Virus record (IMG/VR): IMGVR_UViG_3300009412_000010
Location: 1-39,390 of that record
DNA from: a virus
Length of the DNA stretch: 39,390 nt
Direction: 5' to 3' (one strand)
Shown: piece by piece, positions 8,243 to 37,680 of the stretch
Numbering within the stretch: position 1 is the first letter of the stretch
Layout of the letters: every line of letters begins with the position of its first letter
Notes under the pieces: generated by a model
Seen by the model: the letters and a program-made list of their open reading frames with translations, nothing else
The model's database searches: none
Told to the model about the DNA's origin: nothing
Translations under genes and position numbers: made by a program

Positions 8243-9253
8243 TTAGTTAGATTTTCTACCCAACCATTCCCAACAAGCCTTACGCCAATCATCTGCTTTA
8301 CATTCTTGTATTTCAATCATTGCTTCTTCAATCTGCCCTGATTTATATAACCACCAAGAATTTTGTATCGGTGCGGCAACGTGTGTAAAGAAAGGGTCTT
8401 CATATATAGTATGGTCAAATGGTTTTCTATCGAAGAATCCCAATAGATCCAAGTCCCATATTTGTATATCTGTATTGACTATAGGGTACGGTTTTACCAT
8501 TTCTGCTGTATAGGGGTTTAAAGCAAGAAATCTTTTTTGTGTAAAAAAGTCCATTGCGTCTTGTTCTATAAATTTATTAAGCAATGGTTCAAACACCACA
8601 TTATAAGCATGATAGTTATCGCTGATTTGATAATACTTACCCACAGATACACCAATAGCCGTAGCCATATATTCCTGTAGCATAGACATATGCACTACGT
8701 TTGCTCCGTAAGCCCCCCAAATTATGTCATTGGATCTATTACAAACAGTCATTTGTAATTTTCCCTCTAGGTCTATCTTGAAATAGACACAAGTATTACA
8801 AGGGACATCAGCACCGTCTCTATCTAAATCTTCAACAGGATCCCACATTTGTAATACAGATCTTCTATCTTCTGGATTCTCTTTTAGTCTTTTAATTATG
8901 ATTGGTATTTGATCACGAAAAAACCAAGACCGCCATCTCCAACCATAAGCACCGTGCAAGGTTTGGCCGTCATCGCTGAATTCTTTCATTCTTTTGTTAT
9001 ATTGATAAACAAATTCGAGGTCATACCCTCCCTTTATCATCCACAAGGCTTCCATAAAATGAAAGAACGGGTTTGCGTTACGCTCTTTCCAAAATAAAAC
9101 CCTCTCTTTCGGCTTACTGTAGACGGTAGTTACCGGCGTAGGAGCCTGAAAAACTACTCCATTTCGGCTCTCTGCTTTTACTCCATTTGTATATAAAAAA
9201 TCAAGACCCCGTAAAAGAGCATCATGTGCGTTCCTTACATTAAGAACTTTCAT
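8243..9253 (-). CDS. Thymidylate synthase-fold protein, candidate dUMP hydroxymethylase
   Basis: A 336-residue protein of the thymidylate synthase/nucleotide hydroxymethylase superfamily. The catalytic cysteine is C152 in DVPCNTCVYFKI, where the usual His after Cys is replaced by Asn. The pyrimidine-binding segment is RSNDIIWGAYGANVV, with N185 likely matching the Asn that selects dUMP. YHAYN (H215, Y217) matches the deoxyribose-binding His/Tyr pair. Such enzymes methylate dUMP or hydroxymethylate it. The neighbouring glycosyltransferase and hypermodification genes favour 5-hydroxymethyl-dUMP synthesis, but plain dTMP synthesis is possible. It overlaps the glycosyltransferase gene by 14 bases. 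Confidence 0.8.
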   Translation of the reverse strand: MKVLNVRNAHDALLRGLDFLYTNGVKAESRNGVVFQAPTPVTTVYSKPKERVLFWKERNANPFFHFMEALWMIKGGYDLEFVYQYNKRMKEFSDDGQTLHGAYGWRWRSWFFRDQIPIIIKRLKENPEDRRSVLQMWDPVEDLDRDGADVPCNTCVYFKIDLEGKLQMTVCNRSNDIIWGAYGANVVHMSMLQEYMATAIGVSVGKYYQISDNYHAYNVVFEPLLNKFIEQDAMDFFTQKRFLALNPYTAEMVKPYPIVNTDIQIWDLDLLGFFDRKPFDHTIYEDPFFTHVAAPIQNSWWLYKSGQIEEAMIEIQECKADDWRKACWEWLGRKSN

Positions 9254-10022
9254 TTATTCCGTCCTTATATGCTTTTTTCCAACTAATTCTCACATCTTTA
9301 CGGGGTAAACCGCCCCAAGCAGTTTTAGTTTGTTTTTCCACAAGTTTAACATGATCAGGGTGAAGGTCGTGTAGTCTTTGCGCCCCTTCATTGTGGACGT
9401 CAATTGTGCGCCACTCACTACAGCCTCCTTCTGCGTTTGATGATTTTTGCCCTTGAGCGTAGTAATAGCTTACCTTATTTGCTTTACCTTCTCTTAATAG
9501 TTGTAGGGCAATGTCAAAGTCTTCCATTACTCTAGTTCTTCCCCACTCCACACTATCAGGGAATACTTCTAGGTTATATCCCAACACACGCATATACCGA
9601 GTATTTTCTACCGATAAGTTTTTTACATGGTTGTTACCTTCTCTTGCGCTTATACCAACATGAGCATAACCCTGATCCATCCACTCATCTAGCAAGCCGA
9701 ATAGAGCAGGATATTCGCTCGATTGAAGATATCGAAGGTGCCAATCAATAGGACTTTTACGAATATAGAACCGTAAGTCATCATCCAACATAACTATACG
9801 AGGGTCTTCTACATTTTCTACTATATATTTACGTTTTGGACCAATACCTATGCAATCACTAGGTACAACCATTCTAGGTGTGTCTGGGTAGTTGTGGTAT
9901 TTATCTTTTTCATCTTCATCTATTACTAATACAACTGATCCGTCTCTCTGCATTTCTTTAGGAAACCACCTTAAAGTTTCCTGATTATAGGGTCTTCCCC
10001 TTGTGGGAATATATATTTTCAT
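9240..10022 (-). CDS. GT-A glycosyltransferase, TAGT-like (DNA base modification candidate)
   Basis: A 260-residue protein with a GT-A fold pattern: IYIPTRGRP at the N-terminus (nucleotide-sugar strand), VVLVIDEDE, GPKRKYIVEN, and IVMLDDDLRF with D80-D81-D82 as the metal-binding DxD. It closely fits my knowledge of TET-associated glycosyltransferases (TAGT), which are predicted to glycosylate hydroxymethylated bases in phage DNA. ARE and SSNAEGGCSEWR are later conserved-looking spots. No TET/JBP oxygenase is seen next to it, so the acceptor would be made at the nucleotide level by the adjacent TS-fold enzyme. Glycosylation of another acceptor cannot be excluded. Confidence 0.7.
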   Translation of the reverse strand: MKIYIPTRGRPYNQETLRWFPKEMQRDGSVVLVIDEDEKDKYHNYPDTPRMVVPSDCIGIGPKRKYIVENVEDPRIVMLDDDLRFYIRKSPIDWHLRYLQSSEYPALFGLLDEWMDQGYAHVGISAREGNNHVKNLSVENTRYMRVLGYNLEVFPDSVEWGRTRVMEDFDIALQLLREGKANKVSYYYAQGQKSSNAEGGCSEWRTIDVHNEGAQRLHDLHPDHVKLVEKQTKTAWGGLPRKDVRISWKKAYKDGINESS

Positions 10023-10034
10023 ACTTTCTCCAGT

Positions 10035-10211
10035 CTAATCATATGTGGCGGTCCAATTCTTAAAGATTTGTCTAGCTTCAACACGCGATAAACCGTACTC
10101 TTCCTCAAGCCATCGTGGGGCACCAAACATATTCATTGCACCGCTTTCCCTTATGGCTTCGAGAACTATATTGTATTTATCCTGATCTTCTTTTGTTATT
10201 TCTACTGACAT
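10035..10211 (-). CDS. 58-residue conserved phage protein (small gene)
   Basis: A short gene that begins MSVEITKEDQDKYNIVLEAI and ends WTATYD. It has the pattern SGAMNMFGAPRWLEEEYGLS then RVEARQIFKNW, which I associate with a small helical protein widespread in marine phages. The ATG is preceded by GAGGAAAAG. It fills the gap between the Nmad1-like gene and the glycosyltransferase with only 2 and 12 bases on either side, so it is part of the same operon. The helix-turn-helix-like shape suggests a DNA or protein adaptor role; unproven. Confidence 0.75.
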   Translation of the reverse strand: MSVEITKEDQDKYNIVLEAIRESGAMNMFGAPRWLEEEYGLSRVEARQIFKNWTATYD

Positions 10212-10213
10212 TT

Positions 10214-10522
10214 TTACTTTTCCTCTCTAGTATTACTCCAACGTGTACCGGTGTAAGATTCTACAAGCAATAAATATCTTCTTAAGTCTCTGATATCATC
10301 TAAAATTCCAGAATCAGATTGATCTATGTCTATAGCCTGAAAAATATCATAGCCGGTATCCTTGACTTGCTTTTCTATTCTGTCCCACTTACGTGCTAGC
10401 ATCATCATAGCCCCTACCCCGCCTCGCATTCGCCAACTGTCCCCGTAACTTTTTTCTGCCTCTCTTAGTTTAGTTACGTCTCCGTCTGCCAATTCCTGAA
10501 TATGGGTAAAGTCTGCCGGCAT
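10214..10522 (-). CDS. Nmad1/DUF1599-like small protein
   Basis: A 102-residue helical protein with KLREAEKSYGDSWRMRGGVG, then LARKWDRIEKQVKD, then DDIRDLRRYLLLVE. The order YG-S-W-R, K-x-R-I, then D-x-x-D-L-x-x-Y matches the DUF1599/Nmad1 plan (nucleotide modification associated domain 1), all-alpha and related in style to MazG-like NTP pyrophosphohydrolases. The location inside a base-modification cluster supports a nucleotide-handling role. Confidence in the family is moderate; the function is inference. Its ATG immediately follows, with no gap, in the order HMUDK-like gene, then this gene. Confidence 0.6.
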   Translation of the reverse strand: MPADFTHIQELADGDVTKLREAEKSYGDSWRMRGGVGAMMMLARKWDRIEKQVKDTGYDIFQAIDIDQSDSGILDDIRDLRRYLLLVESYTGTRWSNTREEK

Positions 10523-11371
10523 TTATTTTTCCCCTGCATATTTATATTTTGATCTAGGTCTGCCTTCCCCTAAACGAACTCTTTCGTACTTATCAAATTC
10601 ACAAAGACAATGCTCTATTTCTCTCATCTCCAGTTCTTTATCGAGAAGGAATAGAATATTCTGGTTAAAGTTAGTGAGTAAACTTTTCATTTCTTGGGTA
10701 AGTTGATCTTCTTTAATAGCTTGCTTAAGAGATCTACCGTGTATTCTATTTAACCCTCGTTTTGCTCCTGGACCAGCGTTAGCCCAAGTCATAATGTCTT
10801 CAGCATTTTCTAGGTGTCGGGTGTGACGTAAATCGGTAACGACTTCATAGGACATAAACCCGCTGAAACCAGCATAGGGGAGATAATTTTTCCAAGTTTC
10901 TTTAAGGGAGTGCGGTATTATTTCAGGAGGGTTATGATACACAGGGGTGAGAATTTTATCTACAGTTTGTTGTACTTTAGTCCCTCCTAAAGTACCGGTT
11001 AACATATACGCTCCTGTGTAAACTTTTTCTCCTCTGTCCATTCTAGCTTGCATAATTTCTTTAGTTCTTTCAGGGTTCCAGTAATAAGGGAAGCCTATTT
11101 CTTCTAGGGTATCTGGCCAATTTATTTGGCGAGCCATGGACATGGCAAAAGGCAAATTTGGATGATCGGCGTAGGGTTCCCTCCAATTTTTTCGTATCCA
11201 AATAGTGACCTTGTCTAACTCCCTGAATACATTACAGAAACTGTAGGTTTGAAGTATCTTATCCTCAGTCCATGGAAAAGGTTCTCCCTCCTGACGTTTT
11301 AGATAAATCCTATGTCTTTCGTTTATATAGCGAAAGAAACGATGCTCCGCTGCTTCTATGTCTGAAGTCAT
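10523..11371 (-). CDS. DNA base hypermodification protein (5-hmdU DNA kinase helical-domain family)
   Basis: A 282-residue protein matching the helical domain of the 5-hmdU DNA kinase / alpha-glutamyl-putrescinyl-thymine family. Visible blocks are FFRYINERHRIYLKRQEGE, PWTEDKILQTYSFCNVFREL followed by DKVTIWIRKNWREP, GEKVYTGAYMLTG, and GFSGFMSYEVVTDL then WANAGPGAKRGLNRIHGR. These helical proteins resemble HhH DNA glycosylases and act on DNA-borne 5-hydroxymethyluracil derivatives. No Walker A motif is present, so unlike two-domain 5-hmdU kinases it seems to be the helical part alone and may catalyse transfer rather than phosphorylation. It is the first gene of the modification cluster. Confidence 0.8.
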   Translation of the reverse strand: MTSDIEAAEHRFFRYINERHRIYLKRQEGEPFPWTEDKILQTYSFCNVFRELDKVTIWIRKNWREPYADHPNLPFAMSMARQINWPDTLEEIGFPYYWNPERTKEIMQARMDRGEKVYTGAYMLTGTLGGTKVQQTVDKILTPVYHNPPEIIPHSLKETWKNYLPYAGFSGFMSYEVVTDLRHTRHLENAEDIMTWANAGPGAKRGLNRIHGRSLKQAIKEDQLTQEMKSLLTNFNQNILFLLDKELEMREIEHCLCEFDKYERVRLGEGRPRSKYKYAGEK

Positions 11372-30720: not shown

Positions 30721-31164
30721 TTACACCTTATACCAATCTTTACCTTCAAAAAGAAGAGATTCGGCCTCCCTTCTTCTCACTAAACCACCTAATACTTTAC
30801 CGGCTGCTTTGTTCCAACGCTTCATTTCACTAGGAACTTTATTATATTCCCCTTGATTCAAGACTTTTAACATAGTAGAATTCTTTAAATTTGAAGGACC
30901 AAGGTTAAATGTCCAAGCTACTAACGCATCAAACTGATTTTGCTCTAAATCTACAGTAACTAACTTATCCACAAAGCCTTCGAACTCTTCTAGATCTTCA
31001 GTTAACATCTGATCAGCTTCTTCTTGCGTGCAAACATCCCCATCTGACACGTCTTTAGTATGCCCGTACCCGATAGTTGACACATCAGCACTACAACGAT
31101 AGCTTTCTAACTCACAGCCTTCAAATTTTTTTATCAGAGCCTTACCTTCTTCGGAAGTTTCCAT
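30721..31164 (-). CDS. GH24 (T4-type) endolysin
   Basis: A 147-residue lysozyme that cleaves the glycan of host peptidoglycan. The catalytic pattern E15-(8 residues)-C24-(5 residues)-T30 (KKFEG...YRC...STIGYGHT) is the E-8-D/C-5-T triad of phage GH24 enzymes with Cys in the Asp position. NQFDALVAWTFNLG and GLVRRREAESLLF are the conserved C-terminal lobe. There is no signal peptide or SAR segment, so it needs a holin, supplied by the upstream gene whose stop overlaps its ATG (TAATG). Confidence 0.95.
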   Translation of the reverse strand: METSEEGKALIKKFEGCELESYRCSADVSTIGYGHTKDVSDGDVCTQEEADQMLTEDLEEFEGFVDKLVTVDLEQNQFDALVAWTFNLGPSNLKNSTMLKVLNQGEYNKVPSEMKRWNKAAGKVLGGLVRRREAESLLFEGKDWYKV

Positions 31165-31643
31165 TATTCTTCCTTATTATCAGAATGTGAGGCACCAAAG
31201 TAAAAAGAAATGATTGCACTCGCCAACCCTCCGAGATACCCTAAAACTAGATTTATTAGAGCCTCTGAGTTTTGTTCAGGCGGCTGTAGAGTCACCAAAA
31301 AGATATACCCCATAAAACCGCCAACCGTAAACAAACCGATAAGTCTGGCGGTCCAATCTTTACTAAACTTGCTTCTAGCATCCTGAATATCCAGTGTTTC
31401 AAGCTTGAAAATATCAACGTCTAGTTCCTTCATCTGGAGTTCAAAAGTTTTCTCGGCCTTCTTTAATTCTAACAACTGCTCCGGGGTTGCCTGCTGTACT
31501 GCATTATCAATAGCCTTTGGATTATCTTCACATCCCAAAACATCGCATATAACCTTACTGGCCATACCGCCTAATGGGCCACCTAGAGCAGTTCCTAAAC
31601 TCGGAGCTACTGCCCCAACTATACTTTTTAATAGATTTTTCAT
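31164..31643 (-). CDS. Holin (3TM GTA-type)
   Basis: A 159-residue membrane protein. Two strong membrane segments lie at residues 101-119 (LIGLFTVGGFMGYIFLVTL) and 128-150, and an amphipathic Gly/Ala-rich N-terminus (residues 5-30) may be a third. A charged helix (residues 55-95) lies between. This is the layout of the GTA-type 3TM holin family. It should form inner-membrane lesions that let the endolysin reach the cell wall. Its ATG overlaps the cyclase stop by 4 bases with GGAGG just before it, so lysis timing is tied to translation of the cyclase. Confidence 0.8.
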   Translation of the reverse strand: MKNLLKSIVGAVAPSLGTALGGPLGGMASKVICDVLGCEDNPKAIDNAVQQATPEQLLELKKAEKTFELQMKELDVDIFKLETLDIQDARSKFSKDWTARLIGLFTVGGFMGYIFLVTLQPPEQNSEALINLVLGYLGGLASAIISFYFGASHSDNKEE

Positions 31644-33418
31644 CGTTCCTCCACTGTATAGATTTCCAGAGACTTTTCTTTACCTTTTACTTTTATAGGC
31701 TCTAACAATTTTAGCTTAAAACTACAATAGTTTTTAGTATCTTTTCCTATAAGTATATCTTCTCCAACTTCTTTTGTTGCAGATTCTAGCCTTGCAGCTA
31801 TGTTTACTGCATCTCCAATGGCGGTATAGTCAAATCTCATTTCACTTCCCATATTCCCGATAACCGCTTCTCCAGTATTGATTCCGATACCAATAGCCAC
31901 TGGCGGTAATTTTCTTTGGGCGAGTTCTATATTTAGCTCCGACATATTTTTTAGAATATCTAGTGAACACTCAATAGCGACATGTGCGTGCTTATCTAAG
32001 TCTAATGGTGCATTAAAAATTGCCATCATTGCATCACCGATATACTTATCGACCATGCCGCCGTGTTTTTGCACAGCCTTTTGCTGCGCAGTCAAGGCTC
32101 TATTCATTATATATGTAACTTGCGCCGGGTCTAAAGACTCGGACATAGAGGTAAACCCTCTTACATCAGTGAATAGGTAAGTAGCAAGTCGCTTTTCGCC
32201 TCCGAGCTTTAGTAGCTCTGGGTTCTTCTGTAACTTTTTAACCTGCCTTGGATCAAGGTAGTGTTCAAATTGCTTTTTGATTTCCTGTCGTAGCTTATAC
32301 TGTTCACGAAATCTCAGGTAGAAGGCGGCAGATGCAATAATGAATTCAGATATCAGAGCCCATGTTACATCTACCAGTAAACCCCTCTGAATTAAGGCAA
32401 GTCCTAAATATCCTACCCCTGTAAACAATAGACCGGTTAATGTTATTCCTAGCGTTATCCCTAAAGAATTGATCAAAACAACTGTCAAGATTGTGCCGGC
32501 AAAAAATATCAATACTTCTGCCGCCAACGCCCAATTCGGTATATAGGGGCTATTTTCTATCAAAATGCTTTCTGCTAAAGCCGCCTGTATTTTGTGCGGT
32601 TCAAGCAGCTTGTTGTTTGGTACTGCAATTTGAGGCATTATGCCCCTTGCCGTAAACCCTACAAAAACAAACTTATCTGCAACATCCATTTCGTATAAGT
32701 TTGTTTCTGGAGTATCTACATAACTAATCCATCTTCTACCCAATGAGTCTACAGATACCGGAGGAAGCCCCCGGACCCTGACTTCTTCTATTCCATTTTC
32801 ACTTGTCCTTATAACGTAAGTATCTGCACCTGCTAGTATTTTTAGAACCTCAGTTCCATAAGCAGGAACCCATCCATCTGGAGTTCTCATCAATAGAGGA
32901 AGTCTTCTGACTAAATTATCTATATCAGTTCTAGCAACCGCTATCCCCTGACTGGAGCTTTCTTTCAGCGGGTCTATATTCTGTATGACGCCACTTGCCA
33001 GAATACCGCCAATATCTTCCCCTAAAATAACGGTGCCTGTTGTTTCGGGGTAGCTTCCGTTATCGTTCTCAAACATTGCGAGAACACTTGGCGACCCAGA
33101 TAAAGCACTAGCAAATTCTGTATCTCCTCCAAACCTATCAGGTTGTGGAAAAGCTAGAACCCACCCTACGCCTATAGCTCCCTTCTCTAATAGCTCATTA
33201 TGTATCTCTGCGAGTCTTTGCCGGCCAAAAGGATACCCCCCCTCTCTTTCTATATCTTCCTCATTAATAGAAAGTATTGAGAAATATCCAGAAGCTTGTT
33301 TTTCAGAAACTAGGGAATCAAAAGTCTTTAGTTTCAGTGTCTCTATAAAACTCAGGTTCCATACAAATGGAATACTTAATAATATAAGCAACCCACCAAG
33401 CTGAATATATCTAGTCAC
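31640..33418 (-). CDS. CHASE2-domain class III adenylyl (or guanylyl) cyclase
   Basis: A 592-residue membrane enzyme. One N-terminal membrane anchor (about 5-22) is followed by a periplasmic CHASE2 sensor (about 30-285, with SILSINEEDIEREGGYPFGR and GILASGVIQNIDPL). Three membrane segments (about 298-366) and a cytosolic cyclase domain (405-560) follow. Catalytic residues are visible: metal ligands D418 and D462, base-selecting K458 with T532, and N539/R543. All needed residues are present, so it should be active; K/T favours ATP. It starts at a GTG overlapping the end of curlin 2 by 8 bases. cAMP production in response to a periplasmic or surface signal is inferred. Confidence 0.92.
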   Translation of the reverse strand: MTRYIQLGGLLILLSIPFVWNLSFIETLKLKTFDSLVSEKQASGYFSILSINEEDIEREGGYPFGRQRLAEIHNELLEKGAIGVGWVLAFPQPDRFGGDTEFASALSGSPSVLAMFENDNGSYPETTGTVILGEDIGGILASGVIQNIDPLKESSSQGIAVARTDIDNLVRRLPLLMRTPDGWVPAYGTEVLKILAGADTYVIRTSENGIEEVRVRGLPPVSVDSLGRRWISYVDTPETNLYEMDVADKFVFVGFTARGIMPQIAVPNNKLLEPHKIQAALAESILIENSPYIPNWALAAEVLIFFAGTILTVVLINSLGITLGITLTGLLFTGVGYLGLALIQRGLLVDVTWALISEFIIASAAFYLRFREQYKLRQEIKKQFEHYLDPRQVKKLQKNPELLKLGGEKRLATYLFTDVRGFTSMSESLDPAQVTYIMNRALTAQQKAVQKHGGMVDKYIGDAMMAIFNAPLDLDKHAHVAIECSLDILKNMSELNIELAQRKLPPVAIGIGINTGEAVIGNMGSEMRFDYTAIGDAVNIAARLESATKEVGEDILIGKDTKNYCSFKLKLLEPIKVKGKEKSLEIYTVEER

Positions 33419-34130
33419 TCTGAGATATTGTGACTGTTTTATTACAATTAGTGACGCAGTTGTAACTTACTGTAATACTTTTATTGGTAATTCCGGATTG
33501 ACTAGCAGTCACATCGTAGTCATCCGTATAGAAATTCAGCCTCATATAATGGTCGCCACTCCCAGTTTGCGTTATAGAAGCATCATTGTTATCCGCATAG
33601 CCGCTTGCATAGATTTTGGCGTAATGCTCCCCGCTACCTGACTGATCTATACTAAAATCAGAATAATTGCCAAAAGCCCTTATCTCGGCTTCCTTGTCAT
33701 CACCATCTTGAGAAATACTATAAACATTCCCATCTCCCTGCATATAGATTTCTCCGTCATTATTGTCACCGTTTTGCACAACATCCATATCATTTAAATC
33801 ATCATCGGCATCAATGTATCCAAAATTATCATTGCCTGTTTGTTCTATTTTGTATTCGTTTCCTGTATGTAAAGTTACTTGACTATACGCTCTTGCAATA
33901 TTACTTGTACCATTTTGATCTATATCAATTTCTGCATTATTACAATTATGCGTTGTATAGTTTCCTTCAGACAATCCGCACCAAACTCTTGCCGTATTAG
34001 ACGTCCCTATCTGGTCTATATGTATTAATGACGAACTACCCTTGGTCCGCACTTCTACGGAATTGTCTGATGCATATATCAACTGAGAAATCAGTAAAAA
34101 ACTAATCAGACTGATTGATGATGATCTCAC
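33411..34130 (-). CDS. Curlin-like amyloid subunit 2 (secreted)
   Basis: A 239-residue secreted protein with signal peptide (SLISFLLISQLIYA, cleaved before SDNS) followed by repeats of the curlin type, for example LIHIDQIGTSNTA, AEIDIDQNGTSNIA, YKIEQTGNDNFG, MDVVQNGDNNDG, FSIDQSGSGEHY and ASITQTGSGDHY. Each has the I-x-I-x-Q-x-G-x-x-N core that forms one beta-helix rung in CsgA/CsgB. It ends with a C225-x3-C229 pair and TVTISQSD. I start at the GTG after GGAGGAGACA; a GTG four codons earlier lacks a ribosome site. It would leave the cell through the CsgG pore encoded upstream. Confidence 0.85.
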   Translation of the reverse strand: MRSSSISLISFLLISQLIYASDNSVEVRTKGSSSLIHIDQIGTSNTARVWCGLSEGNYTTHNCNNAEIDIDQNGTSNIARAYSQVTLHTGNEYKIEQTGNDNFGYIDADDDLNDMDVVQNGDNNDGEIYMQGDGNVYSISQDGDDKEAEIRAFGNYSDFSIDQSGSGEHYAKIYASGYADNNDASITQTGSGDHYMRLNFYTDDYDVTASQSGITNKSITVSYNCVTNCNKTVTISQSD

Positions 34131-35205
34131 TGTCTCCTCCACCGTTAATCACAATATTTAACTGCTTTCCTGCAGAAAGTATTTGCAGGTTATAGGCATT
34201 ATTCTTGTCTAACTCCAGATCAATAGTGTTTTCAACCTGCCGGAAAAACGCAAGGATCTCTCCTTCTACAAAGCTGTACATCTGTGCATCTTGGTCGAAT
34301 CCCGGAATAATTCCCTCTATCTGAACTCCATCCAGTTCGCCTTCTTCAGCTTGATCTTTTTTCCCTGCGGAAATTTCCTCCATCATTTCAAGCAAGTCTT
34401 GTAAAAAATCTACAGATAAAAAGTCGACATCTAACCGCGTTATTTCATCTTGTAGCTCGTCTTCCGAAAGTCCGTCATCGTCGTCGAGGTCGTTTTCCTC
34501 AAGAAAGTCTACATCTAGCACGTTACTTGCACTTTGGCCTTGCTCATCAATAGCTTGTTGAACTTCTTCTGGAGGACTTACGATAAGAAGATTATCTATA
34601 AAGGCTAATGACATGTTAGTTAATTGCACGGCTTGTGTTGGTGGGCTTTCGGCAACGCTTACCATTGTTGCCTGATATGGCTGGTTTAGTACCTCGACGC
34701 CTGCCATAGTTTCAACTGTAATTTCTCCAGATGAATTTCCAGCAGCGTCTGGCAGAAGGATTACCAAGGAGCGTCCTAGCTCATCAACTGTGGTCGTAAA
34801 ATCAGTGCCTCTAATAAATATTGAGGCACTTGGGGTAGAGATAGAGACACGGGATTTATTGATCTTGCCCAAAGCCCCGGTAATAAATCTCGCTGTCCCT
34901 GAAGCCATGTTAAGAGCGAGCTTGCCTTTATCGGGGTCAGGGTCATAGATATATTCATCAATAACAATTTTAGAATGCTCAGTAAGCCGAATAATGCTAG
35001 AGTCTAGGAACTCTATGCCGATTCGCCCGTTCCCTGTGCGCACATCGTCATAGCTCAAGATACCGAGCTCAGCTTCTGCCGGCAAACTAGCCTGCTGATT
35101 CTCCCGTAAAACCTCTCCATTGCCCCTTAATTCAGAGATTCTGCCTATCTGCGAATACGCAGAATTACAAAAAAATACCAAACAAATCAACAGCCAGAGG
35201 TGCAT
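34102..35205 (-). CDS. FecR-domain secreted protein with curlin-like C-terminal tail
   Basis: A 367-residue protein with a signal peptide (LLICLVFFCNSAYS, then QIGRIS). Residues about 45-150 form a FecR domain (VRTGNGRIGIEFLDSSIIRL, then SRVSISTPSASIFIRGTDFT). Residues 225-300 are very acidic and Leu-rich. The last 25 residues, LNIVINGGGDSEIIINQSD, resemble a curlin rung and end almost as curlin 2 does. FecR-domain proteins sense or bind ligands in the periplasm, and bacterial genomes often place them beside CHASE2 cyclases, as here. It overlaps both curlin genes, so it belongs to the same assembly. A sensor or anchor for the fibre is likely. Confidence 0.85.
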   Translation of the reverse strand: MHLWLLICLVFFCNSAYSQIGRISELRGNGEVLRENQQASLPAEAELGILSYDDVRTGNGRIGIEFLDSSIIRLTEHSKIVIDEYIYDPDPDKGKLALNMASGTARFITGALGKINKSRVSISTPSASIFIRGTDFTTTVDELGRSLVILLPDAAGNSSGEITVETMAGVEVLNQPYQATMVSVAESPPTQAVQLTNMSLAFIDNLLIVSPPEEVQQAIDEQGQSASNVLDVDFLEENDLDDDDGLSEDELQDEITRLDVDFLSVDFLQDLLEMMEEISAGKKDQAEEGELDGVQIEGIIPGFDQDAQMYSFVEGEILAFFRQVENTIDLELDKNNAYNLQILSAGKQLNIVINGGGDSEIIINQSD

Positions 35206-35870
35206 TGGTCTATATCAATAGTGGCGTTACTCGTAGTCGATGTTATGACCACTACTCCAGAAACGCTACCTGTACTATTCGTTTGATCTATATCGATATT
35301 GTTCGTATTTCCAGTTATTGAGGCTGTAATTTCGTGATCGGCATTTCCGGTCTGGGTTGTATCGATATCATTTGAATCGCCATCAACCGTCCAATTATTA
35401 ATACATCCAACCACTTCACAAGTAGCATTAATATTATTTGATGTTCCGGTAATGGTTATATCCTGATTTCCCGCAGTCGCCGTTGCTGCTGCCCCCTGAG
35501 TAAAAACAACTACGTTGGAGTCTCCAGTTTCGGTCAAGTCGAAATCTGTATTAGCAACATCGCCTGTCGCCCCAAGCGCAAGAGTAGTAGCATTGCTATC
35601 GCCAGTGCTTGTTACAGTAAACGAGGTGCTATTTCCCTGAGCTATCGATGCTGCCAGCGTATTTGAGTCGCCCACTTGATCTACATCTACAGTCATGCTT
35701 GTGCCAGTAAACGTCGCTCTCGTTTGAGATGTACCTACAACATTGCTATCGCCTATCTGGTCGATTGTTAGCGTTAGCCCGGTCCCTGACTGAGTTATGT
35801 ATATGTCGTTGTTTGCTCCAAACACTATCGGAGAAACGAAAATCAATAAGATCTTTAGAAGATTTTTCAT
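35187..35870 (-). CDS. Curlin-like amyloid subunit 1 (secreted)
   Basis: A 227-residue secreted protein with signal peptide MKNLLKILLIFVSPIVFG and repeats such as IYITQSGTGL, LTIDQIGDSNVV, VDVDQVGDSNTL, FDLTETGDSNVV and IDTTQTGNADHE, all of the I-x-I-x-Q-x-G-x-x-N curlin type. It ends DQCTSGC (C223-x3-C227) and has another Cys pair (ATCEVVGC). It has the strongest ribosome site of the module, AGGAGG, embedded in the last codons of csgG, and an ATGA overlap. High expression as the main fibre subunit is therefore likely. It is distinct in sequence from curlin 2. Confidence 0.87.
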   Translation of the reverse strand: MKNLLKILLIFVSPIVFGANNDIYITQSGTGLTLTIDQIGDSNVVGTSQTRATFTGTSMTVDVDQVGDSNTLAASIAQGNSTSFTVTSTGDSNATTLALGATGDVANTDFDLTETGDSNVVVFTQGAAATATAGNQDITITGTSNNINATCEVVGCINNWTVDGDSNDIDTTQTGNADHEITASITGNTNNIDIDQTNSTGSVSGVVVITSTTSNATIDIDQCTSGC

Positions 35871-36709
35871 CTTTCCTCCTCTTTCAATTCTGAGTAATTA
35901 AAATCCCATATTTCTTGATCTAGTCCCTTTTTTATTATTTGGTAAACAGATTCCTCTATAGCTGCTCTTGTTGCGTACCCAACTGCTTCATTTTGAGAAA
36001 GCCCTGTCTCAAGTTCTACAAGTTCGGTGCCCATCTCCACAAACCGAAACAAATCCCTGCTAGTACCAGCACTTAAAATAGTTTTGCTCACCATTGTATT
36101 TAATAATACTTCGCCAGTCTGTACAAGAACAACCCTCAAAGATACGGTTATCTCATCCTTACGCCACTGATTACTAGAGCCTATTCCTAAATACCTTGCT
36201 CCGTTTCCACCTGTCTCTATATTGGTATCATACTGAATAATTCCACCTTCAAATAAAAGACCGGCAAAAAGCAAGGGTTTCAGCGTGTTCCCTACCTCTC
36301 CATCATAAGTTTGTCTGGTTTGCCTGATTAATTGCCTTTCTCTTGTCAGGGCGTCAAGACCAGCCCTTTCAACTACAACAAACCAATTTCCACTACCAGC
36401 AGACCTCAAGGCATCGATTAAGTACTGATCTGCCCCTTGAGTAACGGCTGTGCTGAACAAAGCCATTTGTTGTGAGCTTTTTCTCTGACCAGTTAAATCA
36501 TCAAAATTATAAACAGCCACTACTGCTTTTTGTTTTGGGATAGGAAGATTAAGAAGATTTTCCTGAGTGGGTCTTAATGGTTTTGGCTCTTCGGTGCACT
36601 CTAATAAAGAGCTACAACCTGTCGCGCCTAGAGGGGCATACGAAGCACATCCTTCTAGAACTATAAAAATAAAAACAACAAATGTTAAATTCCACAGTCT
36701 TCCGTGCAT
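35867..36709 (-). CDS. csgG: CsgG-family outer-membrane curli secretion pore
   Basis: A 280-residue lipoprotein. The signal peptide ends LEGC with C21 as the lipidated cysteine (Glu at -2 is unusual). CsgG landmarks follow: VVAVYNFDDLTGQRK, FSTAVTQGADQYLIDAL, WFVVVERAGLDALTRERQLI, ETGGNGARYLGIG, EITVSLRVVLVQTGEVLLNT, SKTILSAG and FRFVEMG. These align in order with E. coli CsgG, an outer-membrane nonameric channel that exports curlins. Length agrees with the family (about 277). It overlaps csgF by 25 bases and curlin 1 by 4. All canonical parts seem intact. Confidence 0.95.
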   Translation of the reverse strand: MHGRLWNLTFVVFIFIVLEGCASYAPLGATGCSSLLECTEEPKPLRPTQENLLNLPIPKQKAVVAVYNFDDLTGQRKSSQQMALFSTAVTQGADQYLIDALRSAGSGNWFVVVERAGLDALTRERQLIRQTRQTYDGEVGNTLKPLLFAGLLFEGGIIQYDTNIETGGNGARYLGIGSSNQWRKDEITVSLRVVLVQTGEVLLNTMVSKTILSAGTSRDLFRFVEMGTELVELETGLSQNEAVGYATRAAIEESVYQIIKKGLDQEIWDFNYSELKEEER

Positions 36710-37158
36710 ATCCCGAATATACCTACAGGAATAACTATCTCTGTCACATTTCCATCTGAATCAATGACAGTAAGGGTGATATTTACTCCATCATTTACAA
36801 ACGTAATGGTGTTTCCTTCTAATACTATACTGCCTCCGGTTCCACCAGACTCTGAATTAAACAAGGATTCAGCTATATCTCTAGAAAGCTGAGAATATAT
36901 TCTAGACTCTAAATTCCTTAAAAACTTAGCGAGAGTTGTGTTATCAGCCTCTCTTTCGGCTTCCTTTAGTGCGCTCTCTACGTCTTCAACTATCTCATCC
37001 CGTCTGGTTTTTTCTTGTTCATCAATAGTTAAGTAATGAGATGATGTTCCTATGCCACTAAAACTTGGATTTTTAAACTGATGTATTATTTGATCAGCGA
37101 AGACGTTTTGGGAGATTAGCACAAACGTCACTAAAATTATCTTATCTCTTTTTTTCAT
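36685..37158 (-). CDS. csgF: CsgF-family curli assembly factor
   Basis: A 157-residue secreted protein with a signal peptide (ILVTFVLISQNVFA, then DQI). The mature start IHQFKNPSFSGIGTSSHYL matches the CsgF motif F-x-N-P-x-F that binds inside the CsgG pore. A charged coiled coil follows (residues 50-100), then a beta-rich end (IVLEGNTITFVNDGVNITLT, then VIDSDG) that would reach the cell surface. It ends with FGICTEDCGI, a C151-x3-C155 pair not found in E. coli CsgF. No CsgE or CsgC gene is beside it. It starts within the end of the small membrane protein gene. Confidence 0.9.
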   Translation of the reverse strand: MKKRDKIILVTFVLISQNVFADQIIHQFKNPSFSGIGTSSHYLTIDEQEKTRRDEIVEDVESALKEAEREADNTTLAKFLRNLESRIYSQLSRDIAESLFNSESGGTGGSIVLEGNTITFVNDGVNITLTVIDSDGNVTEIVIPVGIFGICTEDCGI

Positions 37159-37387
37159 GATCTTGTTTTATCTCTAAAGCAGTATTTACTTTTTCCTTCA
37201 GCCTAATCATATCTTGATCTAATAGCCTTAATTGATCTGTAAGACGAATAATCGTTGTTTTCATATCATCTACAGCAGGGTCTATCTTGTTTGTTATCGT
37301 CTGCCACACAAAATAAACAAAATAGCCAAGACCTACTACCATCACTACCGGAAAACCAAAATCAGAAACTAACTGTACAATATCCAC
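37142..37387 (-). CDS. Small membrane/coiled-coil protein (paralogue of 37387-37680)
   Basis: An 81-residue protein. The N-terminal membrane segment is about residues 8-31 (FGFPVVMVVGLGYFVYFVWQ), and the rest is a charged helix with coiled-coil periodicity (IIRLTDQLRLLDQDMIRLKE). It looks like the upstream protein at 37387-37680. The layout resembles UviB/BhlA-type small holins but also simple membrane scaffold proteins. GTG start, overlapping the upstream stop by one base and csgF by 17. Either a second holin or a membrane partner of the curli module is possible. Confidence 0.6.
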   Translation of the reverse strand: MDIVQLVSDFGFPVVMVVGLGYFVYFVWQTITNKIDPAVDDMKTTIIRLTDQLRLLDQDMIRLKEKVNTALEIKQDHEKKR

Positions 37388-37680
37388 TAGTCTCTACGAG
37401 CGTCTATTTTTCCGTCCTCTACAAAATTTTCTGCTCTTGCTATACGGTCTAAATCTGGCGGTAAATTGAGCGCACTTGATACGCTAGTATCAATACGAAT
37501 AATATCATTATTCATAATAGATGCTCTTGTGATAAGCATTTTTGATATCCCTTGTATTGTCTTTATCTCACCAACAAGATTATCCATCAACTGCTTCATC
37601 ACTAAAAATATAAAGAACCCCATAATTAGACCAGAAGCAATAGGTAGACCTAATTCAGTAATTAGGCTGAATACTTCCAT
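37387..37680 (-). CDS. Small membrane/coiled-coil protein
   Basis: A 97-residue protein: membrane segment at about residues 10-30 (GLPIASGLIMGFFIFLVMKQ) followed by a helical tail (LMDNLVGEIKTIQGISKMLI). It shares the start pattern of the next gene (ELGLP / DFGFP), so the pair probably arose by duplication. It begins the overlapping chain that leads into the curli module. Function unknown; holin-like or scaffold. Confidence 0.6.
   Translation of the reverse strand: MEVFSLITELGLPIASGLIMGFFIFLVMKQLMDNLVGEIKTIQGISKMLITRASIMNNDIIRIDTSVSSALNLPPDLDRIARAENFVEDGKIDARRD

Follow-up and report, generated by a model that had tools for sequence, protein, structure and literature searches.

A phage-encoded curli-type secretion module with a FecR protein that ends in a curlin-like strand

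Genes for curli-type (type VIII) secretion were analyzed in a stretch of viral DNA, IMG/VR virus record IMGVR_UViG_3300009412_000010 (39,390 bases), which may be an incomplete genome and is referred to as a whole as the window. An unbroken run of genes on its minus strand extends from 37680 to 31640, and neighboring genes overlap by a few to approximately 40 bases. Eight genes are arranged in the order of two small genes, csgF, csgG, curlin 1, fecR, curlin 2, and a CHASE2 adenylate cyclase. A previous reading of the letters alone (the sequence-only reading) described a continuous run of four genes, for CsgF, CsgG, and two curlins, at 33411–37158. These genes, their order, and their overlap were confirmed, and all four proteins matched the Pfam profiles CsgF, CsgG, and Curlin_rpt (4.5e-13, 1.1e-52, 2.8e-6, and 1.7e-15 in gene order). 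However, the run of four is not uninterrupted because a gene for a FecR-domain protein (34102–35205) intervenes, and the unit extends beyond it in both directions, upstream as far as 37680 and downstream as far as 31640. That reading had missed FecR, the cyclase, and the two small membrane proteins. Pfam matches of the module proteins exceeded the curated cut-offs.

CsgG (35867–36709; PF03783), the outer-membrane secretion pore lipoprotein of type VIII secretion, has the lipobox LEGC. CsgF (36685–37158; PF10614), the fiber anchor and pore cap, has an N-terminal FxNPxFxG motif in the alignment and a C-terminal CxxxC tail. Both proteins align with the solved Escherichia coli chains in the PDB (5e-45 for CsgG and, by profile, 9.5e-12 for CsgF). 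As the sequence-only reading had stated, CsgE is not seen; we obtained no match to it in the window even at E = 10. CsgE is a periplasmic gate that is present in E. coli, but not in all curli systems.

Curlin 1 (35187–35870; 227 amino acids) has a signal peptide, three copies of the hxhxQxG repeat, and the C-terminal sequence QCTSGC, while curlin 2 (33411–34142; 243 amino acids) has eight copies of the repeat. Shuffled sequences contained far fewer, with a mean of 0.16 and a maximum of 2 for curlin 1 and a mean of 0.11 and a maximum of 2 for curlin 2 (2000 shuffles). Both proteins were above the Pfam cut-off for Curlin_rpt and have N-terminal signal-like regions, which is the pattern of secreted curlins. 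In the AlphaFold model of curlin 2 (mean predicted local distance difference test [pLDDT] 82.9, predicted template modeling score [pTM] 0.81), short strands are regularly repeated, and we read the predicted fold as a beta-solenoid. Curlin 2 is a candidate for the major fiber subunit and curlin 1 for a nucleator anchored by CsgF. The CxxxC tail was present on both CsgF and curlin 1 in 70 out of 71 window-like loci and on neither in the other 198, and this covariation suggests a disulfide anchor between the two proteins. Curlin 1 also has an internal CEVVGC pair, both sides of which were lost together in loci L026 and L029.

The FecR-domain protein (367 amino acids; PF04773, 1.7e-10; phrog_37870, 2e-74) comprises, in the model, a signal peptide, a FecR beta domain, a disordered acidic linker, and a C-terminal beta domain. 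Its N-terminal region resembles the cell-surface signaling domain of PupR (Foldseek probability 1.00, E 1.7e-3), and its terminal curlin-like strand in the window is EIIINQSD. An hxhxQ motif was located within the last six residues of 248 out of 249 viral FecR proteins, whereas only 47 out of 2,660 other viral open reading frames of at least 100 amino acids (1.8%) had this feature. The same ending was found in curlin 1 (191/274) and curlin 2 (151/177), and almost never in CsgG, CsgF, the cyclase, or the small proteins. There were 106 distinct 13-residue tails among the viral FecR proteins. The possibility that the motif is a by-product of gene overlap was ruled out because it was retained in 76 out of 77 cases without an overlap with the next module gene. 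The bacterial FecR proteins that were compared did not have the C-terminal strand; among the matches listed for 398 Pseudomonadota genomes, coverage of the phage FecR profile was limited to its N-terminal part. Since the motif is nearly universal in viral FecR proteins, is shared by the curlins, and is lacking in the bacterial proteins compared, it points to contact between FecR and curlin rather than to transcriptional control.

The last gene of the module (31640–33418) encodes an adenylate/guanylate cyclase with the periplasmic sensor domain CHASE2. It has the features of a class III adenylate cyclase: matches to the CHASE2 (2.3e-23) and cyclase (2.5e-22) profiles, membrane segments, and intact catalytic Asp/Lys/Asn/Arg motifs (FTDVRGFT/DKYIGD/YTAIGDAVNIAARL). 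In two alphaproteobacterial plasmids (Methylocystis and Ruegeria), a fecR gene is followed by a cyclase gene that matches the phage cyclase profile. However, no curli genes are nearby, and FecR lacks the C-terminal curlin-like strand of the phage protein. Because FecR and the cyclase stand alone as a gene pair in these plasmids, the phage module resembles a signaling pair that has been merged with a curli operon. Inheritance of the pair within bacterial curli operons was not supported: neither gene lay within approximately 9 kb of the bacterial csgG loci fetched, and the alphaproteobacterial plasmid loci read did not have the pair in curli operons.

The two genes at the upstream end encode a protein of 97 amino acids with a coiled coil (37387–37680; phrog_18771, 2e-23) and a paralog of 81 amino acids (37142–37387; phrog_18771, 7.5e-26), which also has weak similarity to a holin family (phrog_4898, 8e-4). 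Each has one transmembrane-like stretch. Genes at this position have been called histidine kinases (PMC9599517). Pfam detected neither a HisKA nor a HATPase kinase domain in the two window proteins, and the published label appears to be a doubtful annotation rather than a difference between modules. In a tblastn search of the phage collection, relatives of the 81-residue protein were confined to genomes with a curli module (the HTVC008M and Melnitz records only).

Four scans of viral sequences yielded 320 loci in addition to one misbinned contig (L084, described below); some are near-identical and, thus, not all are independent. When the contig was long enough for presence to be counted, CsgG was accompanied by CsgF in 293/293 viral loci, a curlin in 259/259, and FecR in 207/207. 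The cyclase was present in 126/138 and one or more small transmembrane genes in 251/283. Purifying selection acts on each of the eight genes, with median ratios of nonsynonymous to synonymous substitution rates of 0.05–0.12. The sampled viral CsgG proteins formed one clade apart from the sampled bacteria (support 100/97). Bacteria are thinly represented in this tree, with 20 rows that are mainly from Bacteroidota, Pseudomonadota, and plasmids, and a bacterial donor was not identified from it; Alphaproteobacteria have been argued to be the donor (PMC9599517).

A chimeric assembly with host DNA had been named as an outcome that would undermine the module. This was ruled out because independent contigs share the junctions: CsgG on contigs from two other samples is 100% identical, and its flanks and the gene order are unchanged. 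A search for the same arrangement in other viral contigs revealed the core order in approximately 80 further loci. The DNA polymerase of the window best matched those of 023Pt_psg01, HTVC027P, and HTVC023P (49–52%), which places the window among the HTVC023P-type pelagiphages by core replication gene kinship, and a SAR11 host may be inferred solely from this kinship. The window also has genes for a thymidylate synthase, an alpha-glucosyltransferase, and a 5-hmdU (hydroxymethyl-dU) kinase-like protein at 8243–11371. These genes suggest that the phage DNA contains hypermodified thymine; among HTVC023P-type pelagiphages, a thymidylate synthase and DNA-hypermodification genes have been reported for clades V, VIII, and IX (PMC9599517).

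The gene run continues past the cyclase into genes outside the module: a small protein with two transmembrane-like stretches in the transmembrane scan that may be a holin (31164–31643, minus strand; phrog_1544, 7.9e-23, function unknown), a phage lysozyme (endolysin; 30721–31164, minus strand; PF00959, 1.4e-48), and a virion protein. Because the unit runs on into these genes, late expression of the module is likely. Sites in a promoter and terminator scan were no more common than in shuffled sequences.

The curli module in this type of phage has already been published. csgF and csgG were reported in pelagimyophages, with the proposal of sibling capture (PMC7029224); the sequence-only reading had mentioned these two genes in uncultured marine phage contigs. 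The same gene order with FecR and the cyclase was described in 2022 in HTVC023P-type podophages and in myophages, and expression was detected in metatranscriptomes (PMC9599517). Therefore, the complete set with two curlins, which had been regarded as the unusual point, is not. The window matches the order of the pelagiphage type VIII secretion system (PMC9599517; PMC7029224; HTVC008M), namely, small genes, csgF, csgG, curlin, fecR, curlin, and cyclase, although its contig is a separate genome fragment. E. coli curli (csgBAC and csgDEFG) has CsgG, CsgF, and curlin repeats in common with the window. In contrast, the window lacks CsgE and has a built-in FecR and CHASE2 cyclase, and its curlins differ from those of E. 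coli in repeat number and in their position downstream of csgG. In the Methylophilales phage Melnitz, csgGF was proposed to function in lysis, and csgA and csgB were stated to be missing (PMC9004378). However, the Melnitz record contains the same operon as the window, with FecR, the cyclase, and two curlin-repeat proteins that match Pfam.

We consider the module to be a phage type VIII (curli) secretion operon that builds an amyloid on the cell surface for adhesion or aggregation, in which FecR is attached to the fiber and linked to the cyclase; we assign this reading a probability of approximately 0.55. It draws on the homology, order, co-conservation, and purifying selection of the genes and on the FecR tail motif. 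The subunits would reach the periplasm through the host SecYEG, and CsgG would be the pore in the outer membrane, capped at the surface by CsgF, which would also act as the anchor. Nucleation would then fall to the anchored curlin 1, with curlin 2 as the principal fiber subunit, and the infected cell would gain surface amyloid fibers late in infection. In this reading, FecR is not a transcription regulator but is exported and carries its FecR-type sensor domain on an acidic, flexible linker; its terminal strand most likely binds curlin as a nucleator, cap, or sensor. FecR would then signal the status of the fiber to the cyclase, whose periplasmic CHASE2 domain would receive it. The fiber most likely serves adhesion or aggregation.

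Several points weigh against this reading. The Melnitz study observed no clumping (PMC9004378). The CsgE gate is absent from the window. The curlin 2 model had no significant fold match in the PDB, and the idea that the cysteine tails form an anchor depends on a single clade-level event on the tree. The FecR model has moderate confidence (pLDDT 68, pTM 0.50), and profile comparison detected no significant homology between FecR and either curlin beyond the short tail; the C-terminal domain of FecR as a full curlin repeat domain is unsupported. Furthermore, no receptor or target of cyclic AMP (cAMP) was identified. We tentatively propose, with somewhat less than even confidence, that FecR is integral to the amyloid machine in a large viral lineage of curli operons: its C-terminal strand may join the fiber or capture unexported curlin and its FecR domain may report to the CHASE2 cyclase. 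The infected cell would thereby acquire an amyloid-linked cAMP signal, of which no description exists for the bacterial curli systems that were examined.

FecR, the cyclase, and the small upstream proteins may instead be regulators that switch curli gene expression on iron or cAMP, as proposed previously (PMC9599517). The name of FecR and the intact cyclase motifs agree with this proposal, which we nevertheless regard as unlikely. The phage FecR has a signal peptide and, in Pfam, the FecR domain alone, with neither an anti-sigma nor a DNA-binding domain; the supposed histidine kinases have 81–97 amino acids and lack kinase domains, and the module encodes neither a transcription factor nor a sigma factor. 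We give slightly less credence to a role in lysis, in which CsgG-CsgF would be an outer-membrane pore that times or completes lysis in the manner of a pinholin or secretin and the fiber genes would be secondary. The module is directly upstream of the possible holin and lysozyme genes in the window, the two linked small transmembrane proteins have weak holin similarity, and lysis has been proposed for Melnitz (PMC9004378). However, that proposal was based on missing csgA and csgB, while its record holds the two curlin-repeat proteins; the universal presence of curlins in testable loci and their strong purifying selection also argue against secondary fiber genes, and no lysozyme relative adjoining the module was found in many other loci.

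It has also been suggested that the pore mainly takes up nutrients or cofactors while the cell is infected and that the fiber is a by-product (PMC9599517; PMC7029224), and a pore without CsgE may be ungated. This idea appears very improbable to us because it leaves the universal curlins and CsgF unexplained, as well as curlins fused to PA14 domains in related phages. Returning to the surface amyloid, a PA14 (GLEYA-like) domain was predicted in the curlin-repeat proteins at L082:8570–9895 (gp018 of HTVC008M) and L254:9619–10950, in both cases on the second curlin. In L338, a protein with an F5/F8-type domain occupies the place of the second curlin. Because the curlins of HTVC008M and its relatives carry these PA14 or lectin-like domains, predicted to bind sugars, adhesion is favored as the purpose of the fiber among the candidates of adhesion, superinfection exclusion, virion capture, and lysis. 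HTVC008M is a cultured pelagimyophage in which gp018 is annotated as a hypothetical protein.

SAR11 bacteria are among the most abundant in the ocean, and their phages reportedly carry a full amyloid export system that the host lacks (PMC9599517). Support for the sequence-only reading, in which a phage encodes an export pore and fiber beside lysis and structural genes, comes from profile matches, synteny, and purifying selection. The module is real, functional-looking, and already described, and the FecR tail and lectin-like fusions are worth following. What is new is a FecR protein ending in a fiber-like strand and predicted sugar-binding domains on the fiber subunits of relatives; a text search of PMC9599517 found neither of these, nor the non-kinase nature of the upstream genes. 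The FecR tail, cyclase, and PA14-curlins turn the purpose of the module into specific questions on curlin binding or nucleation, the cyclase response, and sugar binding. Two points in the literature are also questioned: the upstream "histidine kinases" have the appearance of small membrane proteins lacking kinase domains, and curlin-repeat genes are present in Melnitz.

In the deep-branching loci L338, L339, L342, L347, and L349, FecR is followed by large secreted proteins (682–1445 amino acids). One of these proteins contains an F5/F8 type C domain, and an autotransporter beta-domain occurs in one member of the set that was scanned. Phage-type curli module genes were also present on L084 (JAAXIF010000105.1, 121 kb) and L166, both in a genome titled Sphingobacteriales bacterium. 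L084 has T4-like neighbors, is most likely a misbinned phage contig in this metagenome-assembled genome, and was not counted as bacterial. A CsgG match of 41% in OR851715.1 (Salmonella phage S.Kent 1-2-1, 1499 bases) is probably host DNA. L353, a viral contig of 337 kb, encodes two small transmembrane proteins, CsgF, CsgG with a C-terminal SH3 domain, a curlin, FecR, and the cyclase.

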